A stretch of 7,213 bases of DNA from Elusimicrobia bacterium HGW-Elusimicrobia-2 (GTDB lineage Bacteria > CG03): positions 1 through 7,213 of the forward strand of contig PHAM01000074.1 in the NCBI GenBank assembly GCA_002841685.1, written 5' to 3'. Position 1 is the first letter of the stretch; each line of letters starts with the position of its first letter. Positions 1,293-6,269 of this stretch are shown here, one piece after another. Position numbers and translations under genes: made by a program. The notes under the pieces are model-generated. The model had not been told where the DNA came from. It did not search any database and worked only from the letters and a program-made list of their open reading frames with translations.

Positions 1293-4097
1293 TCAACCTC
1301 TGGCACCATTTCCGTCCAGCTCTTTTAATATTTTTTCCGGGCGGAAAGGCCAGTGCTTCATCCAGATGCCGCAGGCGTTGTTTATCGCCACGCTTATGCA
1401 GGCGGAAGCGCCGTCGCAGGCGAGCTCGCCGATGGACTTTCCGACATAGGGTGTTATAGAATCCGCGACTTCTATAAGTTCCACCTCAAAATCTTCCGGC
1501 ATGTCATTTATGTTCTGTATCGGATAATCCGTAAAAGTGTCGGTGAGGCATTTGCCCCCTTTGTCAAATTCCATCCCTTCGTATAGTGTGTGCCCTATTG
1601 TTTTCAGCACCCCGCCGTAAACCTGGCCTTTGGCGAGGTCCGGATTTATAGGCACGCCGCAGTCGTGAAGGGCGTGGTATTTGTCCACTTTTACCATGCC
1701 GGTGCGTTTGTTTACTGAAACCTGACAGAAATGAGCGGCGTAAGGTATGGGGGATTTTTGAGTTGTAAAAGCGCCGCTCGATATGAGCTGTCCGGCGCCG
1801 TCGCCGGCCTGTGTGGCGAGAGCAAGTTCTTTGAAGGTCATATTTTTTGATTTTGTTCCCACTTTCCCGACGGGCATTATTTTTACCTGCGAGGGTTTGA
1901 GCTTCAGGATGTTTGCGGCGCTCTGTATTATTAGTTTTTTCATGTTCCGCGCGGCGACATAAGCGGCGTTTCCGGTGAAAAATGTTCCGCTTGAGGCGTA
2001 AGACCCCTTATCAAAAGGCGTTGTGTCCGTGTCCGCTGCGGTGACCGCTATCTGCTCCTGATTCACGCCGAGCTCTTCGGCCGCGATCTTCGCGGCGACG
2101 GTGTCTTCCCCCGTGCCCAGGTCCGCGCCGCCGATATAGAGCATAAAGGTGCCGTCGGAGATCATTTTTACCATGGCGTTGGCCGCGTCAAGCCCGGGAA
2201 TCCCTGAGCCCTGCATCATCACGGCCATGCCTTTCCCCTGGACGATGTCGTCGCCGAGCGAGGATTTTTTGTTTGTCCATGTGTTGTATTTCTTTAGGCC
2301 CTGTTTTATGCATTCCTGTAAACCGCAGCTTGATAATTTTTGCGCAAGGCCTTCTCTTCCTTCGCCGAGCTGTTTGAGAATATCAATTCGGTAGCCCTTT
2401 GTGACGAGGTTTTTGGATAGGAAATCCTCAAATTTCATGCCGAGTTTCTGGGCTAATTGGGCAAGGACGATGTGCACCGTGAAATTTGTCTGAGGCACAC
2501 CATAGCCCTGATAGGCCCCGGAGACGATGTTATTGGTGTAGTATGCCGCCACCTCATAGGACATATTTTCACAGGTGAAGAGGGGCAGTGTTTTTGAGCA
2601 GCCGTTCATGGGAACGGTAAGGGCGTGAGGCCCGTAGCCGCCGGAATCAATCTTTGTTTTTATGGAAAGCGCCGTGAGTTTACCGCTTTTGTCGGCTCCG
2701 GCCTTTACCGTCATGAACATTGCCGGCCGGGTTCTTATGGTGAACTCATCTTTCCTGCTTATCCTGTAATAAACGGGTCTGCCTGACTGGTAAGCGATTG
2801 TCCCGACGAGATCCTCCACTCCGCAGTCCTGTTTCGCTCCGAATCCCCCGCCGACTTTTTCCTTGATAACGCGCACTTTGTTTTCGGCGAGCCCGAGAAT
2901 GTTCGCGACGATCCTGCGCACATGGAATGGCGTCTGGACGGAGGTGTGTATTATGAGCCGCCCGTTTTTCATGTAAGCGTAAGCCGTGTGGGGTTCCATG
3001 GGCGTGTGCTGTACGGGAGGAGTGGAGCAGGCGGCCTCGGCTATGACGGCCGCTTTCTTAAAACCTTTGTCCATATCGCCGATACCGCCGGAATTTCTGC
3101 AGATAATATTTTTTTTCGGGATAGCTCCCACATCAAGAGGATCCAATTTTTTGGCGTCGCGGTCATGTATGACGGGCGCGCCCGGGGCGGAGGCTTCTTC
3201 AATACTGAATACAGGTTTAAGGACTTTGTACCGCACTTTTATTTTTAAAGCCGCTTTTTTCGCAAGCTCAAGGGATGTAGCGGCCACGGCGGCCACCCTG
3301 TCGCCGATAAATCGCATTTTAGCGTTTATAACCTGTTGGTCATAAGGAGAGGGTTCGGGATAGCTCTGCCCGGCCTGAGTGTACCAGGTCTTGGGCGAGT
3401 TTTTGTGGGTGAGGATGTATTCAACACCTTCCATTTTTTCCGCCCCGGATGTGTCTATGGAAATTATTTCCGCGTGAGGATAGGGGCTGCCCAGGACATA
3501 AATATGGAGAGCGTCAGGCGCGACATAATCCTCAACGTATGAATTTTCGGCTTTCACCATCTGAAGAGCGTCTATCTTTTCAGTTATTTTTCCGACGACA
3601 CGATAATCTTTTTTGTATTCCCTGGTGAAATCCTTTGGTTTTTTTCCTTTGGTGATAATATCCAGCGCATTGTATATCTGCTTGTATCCGGTGCAGCGGC
3701 ACAGCACACCGCTCAAGGCGTCGTTTATCTGTTGACGGGAAGGCTTTTTTACTTCATCCAGCAGTGCTTTGACGGCGAGTATCTGGGCGGGGGTGCAGTA
3801 GCCGCATTGGACGATGCCGGCGTCTATGAAGGCCTGCTGTATTTTGTGAAGTTTTCCGCCTTTGGAAAGCGCCTCTACCGTCGTGATATTTTTTCCGTTT
3901 ATCTGCGGGGCGATCAGGAGACAGGAATTAACGAGTTTTCCATCCAGAAGGATGGAGCAGTTGCCGCATTTTCCCTCTTCGTCACAACCTTTTCTCACGG
4001 AATTGATATGCAGTTCCTTCAGTATATCAAGCGCTTTTTTTTCAGCCGGCGCCTCAAGTTCCACATTTTTGCCGTTCAAATTGAATTTTATTTTCAT
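1293..4097 (-). CDS. xdhD: Molybdenum hydroxylase, fused [2Fe-2S] and molybdopterin subunit (XdhD-like)
   Basis: This 934-residue protein belongs to the xanthine dehydrogenase/aldehyde oxidase family. It should hydroxylate a heterocycle or aldehyde at a Mo-pterin site and pass electrons through two [2Fe-2S] clusters to the FAD partner encoded just upstream. Residues 1-80 are a plant-type ferredoxin domain (C38, C44, C47, C59) and 81-150 a helical [2Fe-2S] domain (C98, C101, C133, C135). The Mo domains follow: GQSYPEPSP (243-251), GDMDKGF (340-346), GGGFGAK (416-422), GAYQGYG (527-533), and GKSIGE (886-891) with E891 as the expected catalytic glutamate. From memory, these motifs match E. coli XdhD (formerly YgfN; about 956 aa) better than classical xanthine dehydrogenase, which normally has Arg where Q530 lies. 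XdhD relatives have been linked to purine hydroxylation and, in E. coli, selenate reduction, and related enzymes use a labile selenium cofactor. The substrate here is unproven. An RBS (TAAGGAG) overlaps the upstream stop codon, 6 bases before ATG, suggesting coupled translation. Confidence 0.92.
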   Translation of the reverse strand: MKIKFNLNGKNVELEAPAEKKALDILKELHINSVRKGCDEEGKCGNCSILLDGKLVNSCLLIAPQINGKNITTVEALSKGGKLHKIQQAFIDAGIVQCGYCTPAQILAVKALLDEVKKPSRQQINDALSGVLCRCTGYKQIYNALDIITKGKKPKDFTREYKKDYRVVGKITEKIDALQMVKAENSYVEDYVAPDALHIYVLGSPYPHAEIISIDTSGAEKMEGVEYILTHKNSPKTWYTQAGQSYPEPSPYDQQVINAKMRFIGDRVAAVAATSLELAKKAALKIKVRYKVLKPVFSIEEASAPGAPVIHDRDAKKLDPLDVGAIPKKNIICRNSGGIGDMDKGFKKAAVIAEAACSTPPVQHTPMEPHTAYAYMKNGRLIIHTSVQTPFHVRRIVANILGLAENKVRVIKEKVGGGFGAKQDCGVEDLVGTIAYQSGRPVYYRISRKDEFTIRTRPAMFMTVKAGADKSGKLTALSIKTKIDSGGYGPHALTVPMNGCSKTLPLFTCENMSYEVAAYYTNNIVSGAYQGYGVPQTNFTVHIVLAQLAQKLGMKFEDFLSKNLVTKGYRIDILKQLGEGREGLAQKLSSCGLQECIKQGLKKYNTWTNKKSSLGDDIVQGKGMAVMMQGSGIPGLDAANAMVKMISDGTFMLYIGGADLGTGEDTVAAKIAAEELGVNQEQIAVTAADTDTTPFDKGSYASSGTFFTGNAAYVAARNMKKLIIQSAANILKLKPSQVKIMPVGKVGTKSKNMTFKELALATQAGDGAGQLISSGAFTTQKSPIPYAAHFCQVSVNKRTGMVKVDKYHALHDCGVPINPDLAKGQVYGGVLKTIGHTLYEGMEFDKGGKCLTDTFTDYPIQNINDMPEDFEVELIEVADSITPYVGKSIGELACDGASACISVAINNACGIWMKHWPFRPEKILKELDGNGARG

Positions 4098-4107
4098 CCC
4101 TGTCTCC

Positions 4108-4893
4108 TTACAAAAGCTTTCTCAGAAGCGAGGCCAAATGGCTCTCAATCATTCTCTGTTTTACGCGCGCGCTGACTTTTACATTCGCGGCGGCGGGAAT
4201 GTCTTTTAAGGCCGCGGCGCAGAGTTTGCAAGTGTCGACCGCCGATGGTTTCAGGCCGTTGAGATATTGCGAGGCTTTTTCCGAGACGGCAAGAGGGCCT
4301 TTCGCGCCGCTGACCGCTACAACGGCATTCGCTATTTTGCCGCCGTGAAGGTCAATGCCCAGGGCTGTCACTATCGCGGGAAAATCCGAGGCGGCGATCT
4401 TGTCCTCGGTGAAAGCGACTTTTCTCGCTGATTTTTTTATTGTGACGGCGCAGACGATACCTTTTTTTGATTTTAGCCATGCCGCCAGCGGCGAGCTTTT
4501 CTTTTTCCCGGATAAATAATATTCCACTTCCGCTTCATATGCGGCGAACACCGGAAGAAGGCTGGAAATGAAAAAACCGCTCGCTGCGGCTCCCCCGACG
4601 GTGGCGATGTTCCTCACGTTGATGCTGGTGAAAGTTCCCGCCGCTTTTGCTATTTCAGGCGGCACTTTTTTTGACAGGGCCAGTTCCTGGATTGTCACTC
4701 CAGCGCCGATGATGATTTTGTTTTTTGACGCCTCAATCTCTTGAGTATTCAGCTCTTTGAGGTCTATAAGAGCTTTCGCCTGTGGCGCGCCCCGCCAGTT
4801 CAACATGGTGCCGCCCGCGAGATAAAAACTTCCTTTTAACTTTTTCTTAAGCTTTTCCGCCCGGTTTAACGATAAAGGTACAAAATATTCCAT
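4108..4893 (-). CDS. ygfM: FAD-binding subunit of molybdenum hydroxylase (YgfM/CoxM-like)
   Basis: This is the 261-residue flavin subunit that would take electrons from the iron-sulfur clusters of the XdhD-like protein and pass them to an acceptor. It has the two FAD-contact motifs of the family: LAGGTMLN (25-32) in the first half and RNIATVGG (94-101) in the second, followed by a C-terminal CO-dehydrogenase-flavoprotein-like domain from about 160. The AGGTxLN form, rather than the usual AGGTDL, and the length match E. coli YgfM (about 259 aa), which is also encoded directly before xdhD. The acceptor is unknown: no NAD-specific or ferredoxin-specific element can be read from the sequence. Translation starts at ATG with GGGGAG about 9 bases upstream. 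It lies 18 bp after nagB and 10 bp before the Mo subunit gene, so all three are almost certainly cotranscribed. Confidence 0.92.
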   Translation of the reverse strand: MEYFVPLSLNRAEKLKKKLKGSFYLAGGTMLNWRGAPQAKALIDLKELNTQEIEASKNKIIIGAGVTIQELALSKKVPPEIAKAAGTFTSINVRNIATVGGAAASGFFISSLLPVFAAYEAEVEYYLSGKKKSSPLAAWLKSKKGIVCAVTIKKSARKVAFTEDKIAASDFPAIVTALGIDLHGGKIANAVVAVSGAKGPLAVSEKASQYLNGLKPSAVDTCKLCAAALKDIPAAANVKVSARVKQRMIESHLASLLRKLL

Positions 4894-4911: not shown

Positions 4912-5658
4912 TTAGAACCGTCCCGATTCTTTTTTCAGTTTAGCGGCCGCGGCGCTGTCGAGTATAAAAGTGCAATTGGTGTGTTTTTGCAGAAGCGATG
5001 CCGGTACATCTTCGGTGACCGGGCCTTCTACGGATTTGAGAATTGCTTCTGCTTTGCTTTCCTTATCTGCTATAAGAATTATTTCCTTTGCTTCCATTAT
5101 GGTGCCGTTCCCCATGGATAGGGCCTGTTTAGGCACATCTTCAGCTTTTTCGAAAAACCGCGCATTATCTTTGACGGTGTTTCCGGTGAGGGTAACCACG
5201 CCCGTGCGCGAATCGGCTTTTGAGCCAGGCTCGTTGAAAGCGATGTGGCCGTTGCTGCCGATGCCGAGAAGCTGGAGGCCTATGCCGCCGGCTTTTTTAA
5301 TGGCATCTTCGTAATCGCGGCATTCTTTTACCGGGTCAGCAGCCATACCGTTGAGCACATGAGTGTTTTCCCGCGGGATGTTGACATGATCAAAAAGATT
5401 TTTATTCATAAAATATCTGTAACTCTGGTCGTGAGTTGCGGGTATGCCGAGGTATTCGTCAAGATTGTATGTTGTCACCCGCGAGAAATCCAGACCCTCT
5501 TCCCGATGAAGCCGCACAAGTTCCGCGTACATTTTTTCCGGCGTTCCGCCGGTGGCCAGGCCAAGGACTATATTTGGATTGCTCCTGATTCTCTGCGCGA
5601 ACAATTCCGCCGCTTTCCTGCTCATCTCCTCCGACGATTCGGTGATAATGAAATTCAT
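4912..5658 (-). CDS. nagB: Glucosamine-6-phosphate deaminase (short, NagB)
   Basis: NagB converts glucosamine-6-phosphate to fructose-6-phosphate and ammonia, the step that brings amino sugars into glycolysis. The 248-residue protein shows GLATGGTP (33-40) for phosphate binding, YNLDEY (64-69) with the catalytic Asp67, and GIGSNGHIAFNEPG (132-145) with His138 and Glu143. Asn136 replaces the Asp of the E. coli enzyme, as in Bacillus-type NagB. The length is close to the short, non-allosteric Bacillus type rather than the 266-residue allosteric E. coli enzyme. I place the start at the ATG ending at 5658, because a GAGG lies 10 bases upstream and MNFIITES is the typical N-terminus. A longer in-frame TTG start at 5706 would add 16 atypical residues inside the preceding gene. 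No nagA is present here. Its neighbours are a cysteine hydrolase and a molybdenum hydroxylase, an unusual setting. Confidence 0.95.
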   Translation of the reverse strand: MNFIITESSEEMSRKAAELFAQRIRSNPNIVLGLATGGTPEKMYAELVRLHREEGLDFSRVTTYNLDEYLGIPATHDQSYRYFMNKNLFDHVNIPRENTHVLNGMAADPVKECRDYEDAIKKAGGIGLQLLGIGSNGHIAFNEPGSKADSRTGVVTLTGNTVKDNARFFEKAEDVPKQALSMGNGTIMEAKEIILIADKESKAEAILKSVEGPVTEDVPASLLQKHTNCTFILDSAAAAKLKKESGRF

Positions 5659-5667
5659 TTTTCTGTA

Positions 5668-5673
5668 TCCTCG
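5668..5673 (-). promoter_or_regulatory. Ribosome binding site of nagB
   Basis: On the minus strand this reads CGAGGA, 10 bases before the ATG at 5656-5658. It lies in the 20-bp spacer after the cysteine-hydrolase stop and selects the short NagB start over the TTG start at 5704-5706, which has no comparable site. Confidence 0.65.
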
Positions 5674-5678
5674 TAAAA

Positions 5679-6269
5679 TTATATCTTTTTTTTCAGCGTA
5701 TTCCAAGATACGGTTTTTATCCAGTTGCTGGCCGGCGGAGTTTTAAGCATAATATCTTTTTCTTTTTTGAGTCCTGAATAAGTATCGCAGGCCTCTTTTA
5801 TAACACTTACCCTGTGCCCGCGGAAAGTCAATTCCTGGGCCGTGCAGAAAAGGCATCTGTCAAGCGTAAGTCCGAACAGTATGCAATCGCGGGTTTTGAC
5901 ATTTTTTTTCCGCCACTTTTCAAATCCCGCTATATCAGGATATGGCCACGAAGTTTTTTTGACCGTTCCCGCGTTTTTGCGCGTCCATACGGGCGAATTC
6001 ATAGCCTTAATCCACGGCTTTCTTTTGATGCTCTCCGGTATTTCAGACTCAAAGCCGGGGGTTCCGGGAACGCAGTTTTCATTTTTATCGCCCCAGCGCG
6101 GATGCCGGTAATCGGCCATAATTTCCCCGACTCTAATTTTTCTTTTTATAAGGAAGGGAATAAGAATTTCTTTTGTGAAACGAACCATGGGGCGTTTTTT
6201 ATAAAAACTTCCCGAAGATAAGGTAAACTCTTTTTGAAAATCAACGCAGACAAAAGAAAATGAATCCAT
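5679..6269 (-). CDS. Isochorismatase/nicotinamidase-like cysteine hydrolase
   Basis: This 196-residue protein resembles the isochorismatase-fold cysteine hydrolases (nicotinamidase, isochorismatase, ureidoacrylate or N-carbamoyl amidases). It has VDFQKEF (9-15) with the first catalytic Asp (D10), CVPGTPGFE (66-74) matching the conserved C-x-x-GT segment, a lysine pair (K104/K105) in the region of the catalytic Lys, and LDRCLF (136-141) with the nucleophile C139. TAQELTFRGHRVSVI follows, as is usual after that cysteine. The region that holds the zinc ligands in nicotinamidase reads DYRHPRWGD (53-61), so some ligands are kept and others are unclear. The substrate therefore cannot be named. Translation starts at ATG only 6 bp after rpsI, with a weak GAAGAG upstream; starting later would remove D10. 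The tail is basic and ends in an A-rich run that is also a possible frameshift site. nagB follows after 20 bp. Confidence 0.82.
   Translation of the reverse strand: MDSFSFVCVDFQKEFTLSSGSFYKKRPMVRFTKEILIPFLIKRKIRVGEIMADYRHPRWGDKNENCVPGTPGFESEIPESIKRKPWIKAMNSPVWTRKNAGTVKKTSWPYPDIAGFEKWRKKNVKTRDCILFGLTLDRCLFCTAQELTFRGHRVSVIKEACDTYSGLKKEKDIMLKTPPASNWIKTVSWNTLKKKI
5685..5691 (-). other. Candidate -1 frameshift heptamer A-AAA-AAG
   Basis: On the minus strand, within a run of eight A (5686-5693), the hydrolase codons read AAA AAA AAG ATA and then the stop TAA. This places the heptamer A AAA AAG, the slippery sequence known from E. coli dnaX, in the right phase two codons before the stop. A -1 slip would enter the nagB frame without a stop before the nagB ATG. 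I see no strong upstream Shine-Dalgarno and no clear downstream hairpin, so function is doubtful. Confidence 0.3.

Follow-up and report, generated by a model that had tools for sequence, protein, structure and literature searches.

An XdhD-type molybdenum enzyme from Elusimicrobia that keeps its iron-sulfur cysteines, a candidate selenium-independent urate reductase

The stretch of DNA studied here (the window) comprises 7,213 nucleotides and is the whole of contig PHAM01000074.1 (C25) of Elusimicrobia bacterium HGW-Elusimicrobia-2, a metagenome-assembled genome (G000; 1.78 Mb; 96% complete). On its minus strand it encodes an XdhD-type fused [2Fe-2S]/molybdopterin subunit of 934 amino acids (the Mo subunit; 1293..4097) and a YgfM-like subunit of 261 amino acids that binds flavin adenine dinucleotide (the FAD subunit; 4108..4893). 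The Mo subunit falls on a deep branch of XdhD and has kept all eight cysteines of two iron-sulfur clusters. With modest confidence, we read the pair as a selenium-independent urate reductase of the XdhD-YgfM type, which would form 2,8-dioxopurine by way of a complete NAD(P)H-FAD-2[2Fe-2S]-Mo chain. In the gut pathway of urate reduction, the opening step, conversion of urate to 2,8-dioxopurine (yanthine), has been attributed to the related XdhD-YgfM of E. coli, and the FAD in YgfM is said to hand electrons over to the Mo in XdhD (PMC12507026). E. coli XdhD is without the cysteines by which electron-carrying clusters are anchored in this superfamily, so the electron route to its Mo is now a question, and the window enzyme offers a natural reference for how such a wire-less XdhD works.

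The original prediction, made from the letters of the window, had assigned the pair to the YgfM/XdhD type, and both model searches and trees bear this out. The best NCBIfam model is TIGR03313 for the Mo subunit (908.4 bits; the next-best, a xanthine dehydrogenase [XDH] model, reaches 522) and TIGR03312 for the FAD subunit (67.1 bits), which also scores above the cut-off of PF00941 (77.5 bits) and carries the motifs AGGTxLN and RNxATVGG. Identity to the E. coli MG1655 proteins is 43% for the Mo subunit (XdhD) and 25% for the FAD subunit (YgfM). The prediction had pointed to the "probable selenate reductase" models; the family is right, and the label is outdated given the reported urate reduction (PMC12507026). 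Trees were built from the Mo domain alone, excluding the Fe-S domain so that the cysteine trait could not influence topology. The window and E. coli XdhD grouped at support 100 against XdhA-type sequences, both with FastTree (100 rows), whose outgroups additionally included E. coli PaoC and a fused aldehyde-oxidoreductase-like protein, and with an IQ-TREE mixture model (54 rows). A placement among aldehyde oxidoreductases or CO dehydrogenase did not occur: an aldehyde oxidoreductase identity of the MOP type is rejected by score (NF045668, 446 bits against a cut-off of 1100) and by position outside it in the tree, and the trees and model scores together exclude CO dehydrogenase and XDH identities.

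Within XdhD, the window lies on a deep branch with members of its own phylum, a Bacillota, and gut metagenome sequences (support 98, IQ-TREE). Both subunits are best matched by the XdhD and YgfM models, yet they score under the curated cut-offs (1101.9 bits for TIGR03313, 241.5 for TIGR03312), and because of this we conclude from the sequences that the Mo subunit is a member of the deep XdhD branch, outside the named equivalogs TIGR03313/TIGR03312. The other deep-branch members tested also score under the TIGR03313 cut-off (L036, 907 bits; L041, 976; L042, 1022; L096, 1052), which is passed by cysteine-bearing XdhDs from other parts of the tree (L110, with 1199 bits, and L103).

In the alignment, the N-terminal Fe-S domain (residues 1-150; 3648..4097, minus strand) has its cysteines exactly where they had been predicted, at C38/C44/C47/C59 and C98/C101/C133/C135, so that the window pair encodes the eight cysteines of two [2Fe-2S] clusters together with FAD- and Mo-binding domains. 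The prediction had stated that E. coli XdhD lost these residues, and this proved correct: the MG1655 translation has D/A/D/S and S/N/S/D at the same columns, eight of eight lost. To place these two states in the family we used the best 80 loci by similarity to a window-led alignment, a selection in which the cysteine share is not a population frequency; L125 and L151 were left out for broken frames, and L144, which has a mixed cysteine pattern and a match beginning only at residue 111, was set aside. Among the resulting 88 XdhD rows, 46 have eight cysteines (one with its first four positions off the contig), 41 have none or one, and 1 was unusable. Retained cysteines are thus not exceptional. 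The cysteine-less rows form a single clade in the mixture tree (Shimodaira-Hasegawa approximate likelihood ratio test 85, not starred), and constraining the cysteine-bearing rows to one clade is rejected (approximately unbiased test, p = 0.006); the FastTree topology requires two cysteine changes. Because the cysteine-less set nests among cysteine-bearing XdhDs, we conclude from these trees that cysteine loss is derived, having occurred once or possibly twice, and that retention is the ancestral and common state.

The cysteine-less N-terminal domain does not look like a decaying one in these alignments, because residues at the former cluster positions are fixed (Asp38 in 39/41, Asp47 in 40/41, Ser98 in 41/41, and Asn101 in 39/41; loci among L111-L170) and the domain is as conserved as in cysteine-bearing enzymes (mean pairwise identity 0.52 and 0.53, respectively). 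A FAD subunit lies nearby in 82 of 85 loci; both cysteine groups keep the adjacent partner, and across 83 aligned partners its motifs GG(T/S) and RNxATxGG are kept in both. At position 109 this partner is mostly acidic in cysteine-less pairs and mostly Cys, Ile, or Ser in cysteine-bearing pairs. Cysteine-bearing XdhDs have the first cluster motif C-x5-C-x2-C in common, against C-x4-C in the other Fe-S subunits examined; the apparent exceptions to the C-x5-C pattern that were inspected are XdhD fragments. The two groups separate cleanly and share one active-site signature, so electron delivery can be tested by comparing natural pairs of complete and cysteine-less enzymes. Within the partial coverage of our literature search, we found no comment on the missing XdhD cysteines.

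The active site of the window enzyme has the XdhD signature. In the segment around GAYQGYG (residues 527-536; 2490..2519, minus strand), position 530 is Gln in 88/88 XdhD rows and Arg in 12/12 outgroups, including E. coli XdhA; it is also Arg in the aligned structures of nicotinate dehydrogenase, two aldehyde oxidoreductases (including MOP), and 4-hydroxybenzoyl-CoA reductase. We take this position to be that of the second-shell arginine beside Mo in xanthine oxidase, presumably Arg912 in the bovine numbering. The catalytic loop KSIGELACDGA (residues 887-897; 1407..1439, minus strand) contains Glu891 at the catalytic Glu position, occupied by Glu in every XdhD and outgroup row that reaches it. 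Window Glu579 aligns with E. coli Glu606 and is invariant within XdhD; Glu606 has been proposed as a urate-orienting residue (PMC12507026).

A reductive role on urate is suggested because this active-site signature is shared with the reported urate reductase, because cysteine-bearing XdhDs occur in spirochaete urate clusters, and because part of the pathway is present in the genome. Under this proposal, NAD(P)H would donate electrons to the FAD of the small subunit; these would cross the two [2Fe-2S] clusters of the large-subunit N-terminal domain to the molybdopterin site, there most likely driving the reductive dehydroxylation of urate (removal of the 6-oxygen) to 2,8-dioxopurine. Sulfur is the probable Mo ligand, given that the window's family is missing the SelD-YqeB selenium route of other families in the phylum, and its maturation would fall to an XdhC/MocA-like pair at another locus. 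Downstream steps would be dispersed in the genome, with SsnA, YgeY, and YgeW as likely participants and a protein resembling dihydropyrimidine dehydrogenase (DPD) as the best candidate in place of YgfK. The gene structure, the cysteines, the family placement, the active-site signature, and the gene inventory are direct observations; from them we infer the cofactor content, electron direction, substrate, and freedom from selenium of the window enzyme, and the replacement of YgfK.

As the prediction had noted for the usual partners, no ygfK, ssnA, selD, yqeB, or mocA lies within the window. Elsewhere in the same genome, SsnA is present on C39 (468 bits; cut-off 455.5), YgeY (565 bits; cut-off 321.5) and YgeW (607; cut-off 500) are adjacent on C36, a YqeA-like carbamate kinase with 49% identity to E. 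coli YqeA is on C2, and 8-oxoguanine deaminase, the product of which is urate, is on C45 (609 bits; cut-off 532). XdhC-like and MocA-like genes lie together on C33, both under their equivalog cut-offs. A genome-wide search had been proposed in the prediction, and it returned this MocA-like gene, with no selD, yqeB, or ygfK above cut-off. Several spirochaete loci have eight-cysteine XdhDs with ssnA, ygeY, and ygeW as neighbours. In the genus of the window, ygeY-ygeW is followed, directly or one gene on, by an Ldh2-like dehydrogenase open reading frame (ORF) read by eye (L233 742-5679, on C36 of G000; L234; L237; L241), which the E. coli urate cluster does not include.

An enzyme of the XdhD clade could instead run in the oxidative direction, as a purine hydroxylase or dehydrogenase: Mo would then be the electron source, the clusters the relay, and FAD and NAD+ the acceptors, and the enzyme would be unrelated to the urate genes at other loci of the genome. 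The cofactor chain is reversible in the xanthine oxidase superfamily, the genome has a cytosine-deaminase-like gene as well as the 8-oxoguanine deaminase, and the locus is away from the urate genes. We nevertheless consider this unlikely: the window enzyme shares the Gln530 found only in XdhD with the reported urate reductase, while all outgroups, E. coli XdhA among them, have Arg, and an XdhA-like Mo subunit, paired with an Fe-S subunit of its own, is encoded separately on C56.

Several observations weigh against urate reduction, beginning with the scores of both subunits under the curated cut-offs. The xdhD-type locus sits among housekeeping genes, apart from the urate genes. Family-model searches of the window's genome found neither YgfK nor YgeX above cut-off, and HyuA gave weak or fragmentary matches only, with no intact copy (it is above cut-off in the congener G001). 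The candidate YgfK matches span the GltD-like half only and belong to other flavoproteins. In our comparison set of 16 genomes of the phylum (7 of the window's family and 9 others), co-occurrence of XdhD with SsnA is imperfect, with XdhD lacking an SsnA above cut-off in G001 and G006 and SsnA lacking an XdhD in G007 and G012. Glu579 also fails as an XdhD-only urate marker, as GEG occurs in 5/12 outgroups.

The low scores and the imperfect co-occurrence with SsnA, together with the lack of urate genes beside the window locus and beside L096 or L092, its nearest relatives, would also suit a non-purine substrate, either another N-heterocycle or an aldehyde, in an XdhD clade broader than its E. 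coli member suggests. Active-site motifs are invariant throughout the clade, however, including in members that lie inside urate clusters, and we regard a non-purine substrate as doubtful.

XdhD counts among the molybdenum hydroxylases proposed to depend on selenium (Haft and Self 2008, PMC2276186), and xdhD genes usually accompany the marker genes of that group. In the window's family the markers are missing: neither selD (model cut-off 125 bits) nor yqeB (TIGR03309; 220 bits) scores above cut-off in any of the 7 genomes (63-97% complete). Because C. difficile benefits from urate and xanthine only if it has both genes (PMC11448449), their absence suggests a selenium-free enzyme in the window's lineage. 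The selD matches of 33-54 bits in this family are under the cut-off, and the one in the window's genome, read by eye, resembles ThiL. Alternatively, the enzyme might depend on selenium like other XdhDs, with selD and yqeB hidden by gaps in the assemblies or their roles taken over by genes not recognised as such; XdhD has been proposed to be selenium-dependent (PMC2276186), and elsewhere in the phylum the markers do lie beside xdhD. Among the other 9 genomes, yqeB is present in 7 and selD in 3, and xdhD is adjoined by both genes in G008 and G015 and by yqeB alone in G009. Absence from all seven family genomes at their completeness makes such dependence very improbable. The window shows that XdhD can persist without selD and yqeB, which sets it apart from the selenium markers under which it is usually filed.

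Two further observations concern these markers. A published rule holds that yqeB occurs only together with selD (PMC2276186); contrary to it, yqeB is above cut-off without a selD above cut-off in G009, G010, G011, and G014 (L041, L071, L074, and L068), where assembly gaps are possible. The selD beside xdhD in G008 (L042 756-1829) has one mid-gene in-frame TGA, which may reflect a sequencing error, a pseudogene, or a recoded codon.

The lack of YgfK might be made good by the DPD-like protein, which has 833 amino acids and whose best solved relative is dihydropyrimidine dehydrogenase. This protein has 59-88% identity across the phylum members compared. In G004 its gene is one gene away from ssnA, and in G008, G009, G010, G012, and G014 it adjoins or lies close to HyuA and/or XDH genes. 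In C. difficile a PydA homologue stands in for YgfK (PMC12507026), so the DPD-like protein may plausibly do the same here. Across the phylum, conserved DPD-like proteins of ~830-860 amino acids, candidate purine-ring reductases, accompany HyuA, XDH subunits, or SsnA (L206 5398-7899, L273 259-2754, L274 8744-11299, and L276 960-3551). A more extended account, which we put forward only tentatively, is that the window represents a selenium-free XdhD branch that predates cysteine loss, that the wire-less state arose once and the former cysteine positions were fixed anew (Asp38, Asp47, Ser98, and Asn101), and that the branch belongs to a reductive urate pathway in which the DPD-like protein serves for YgfK. 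If this account holds, electrons in E. coli-type XdhD would have to reach Mo along a path that bypasses Fe-S clusters, and such a path would be a novelty in the superfamily.

Comparison with known systems places the urate reductase proposal in context. E. coli XdhD-YgfM (b2881/b2880) shares with the window pair its clade, the gene order ygfM then xdhD, the fused Fe-S/Mo subunit with a separate FAD subunit, and the motifs AYQGYG, GEG, and KSxxE; unlike the window, it has no cluster cysteines, and the window's locus is without its ygfK, ssnA, or yqeB neighbours, in a genome with no selD or yqeB above cut-off. The Spirochaetota XdhDs L110, L122, and L129 resemble the window in having eight cysteines and Gln530, with the C-x5-C-x2-C spacing of the cysteine-bearing set, but they are embedded in ssnA/ygeY/ygeW clusters, and L110 is above the TIGR03313 cut-off. 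An AlphaFold2 model of the Mo subunit (predicted local distance difference test 88, predicted template modelling score 0.90) matches D. gigas aldehyde oxidoreductase (MOP; 1sij) along its full length (Z 39.3, root-mean-square deviation 2.4); two [2Fe-2S] motifs and the catalytic Glu are likewise shared with MOP and the xanthine oxidase family, whereas MOP has AFRGYG, with Arg, for the AYQGYG of the window. Reductive dehydroxylation within the same superfamily is known from 4-hydroxybenzoyl-CoA reductase (1rm6), which is also a close fold match (Z 37.7); it differs in its separate Fe-S subunit and AMRGHG motif (Arg), and the window scores 404 bits against its model TIGR03194 (cut-off 994.55). 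Many enzymes of the family give similar Z scores, and the fold does not discriminate between substrates.

Both subunit ORFs are uninterrupted, are spaced by 10 base pairs, and are each preceded by a plausible ribosome-binding site; scans for promoters and terminators gave no signal above shuffled sequence. The minus-strand order in the window is rplM, rpsI (both read by eye), an isochorismatase-like ORF, nagB, the FAD subunit, the Mo/Fe-S subunit, and rsgA. The isochorismatase-like ORF (5679-6269) scores 22.5 bits against Pfam, under the 27-bit cut-off. In congeners the place of nagB (4912-5706) is taken by a 611-amino-acid ORF (L046 2311-4146; L036 9980-11815) that, from its N-terminus read by eye, resembles glmS, whose product synthesises glucosamine 6-phosphate instead of degrading it.

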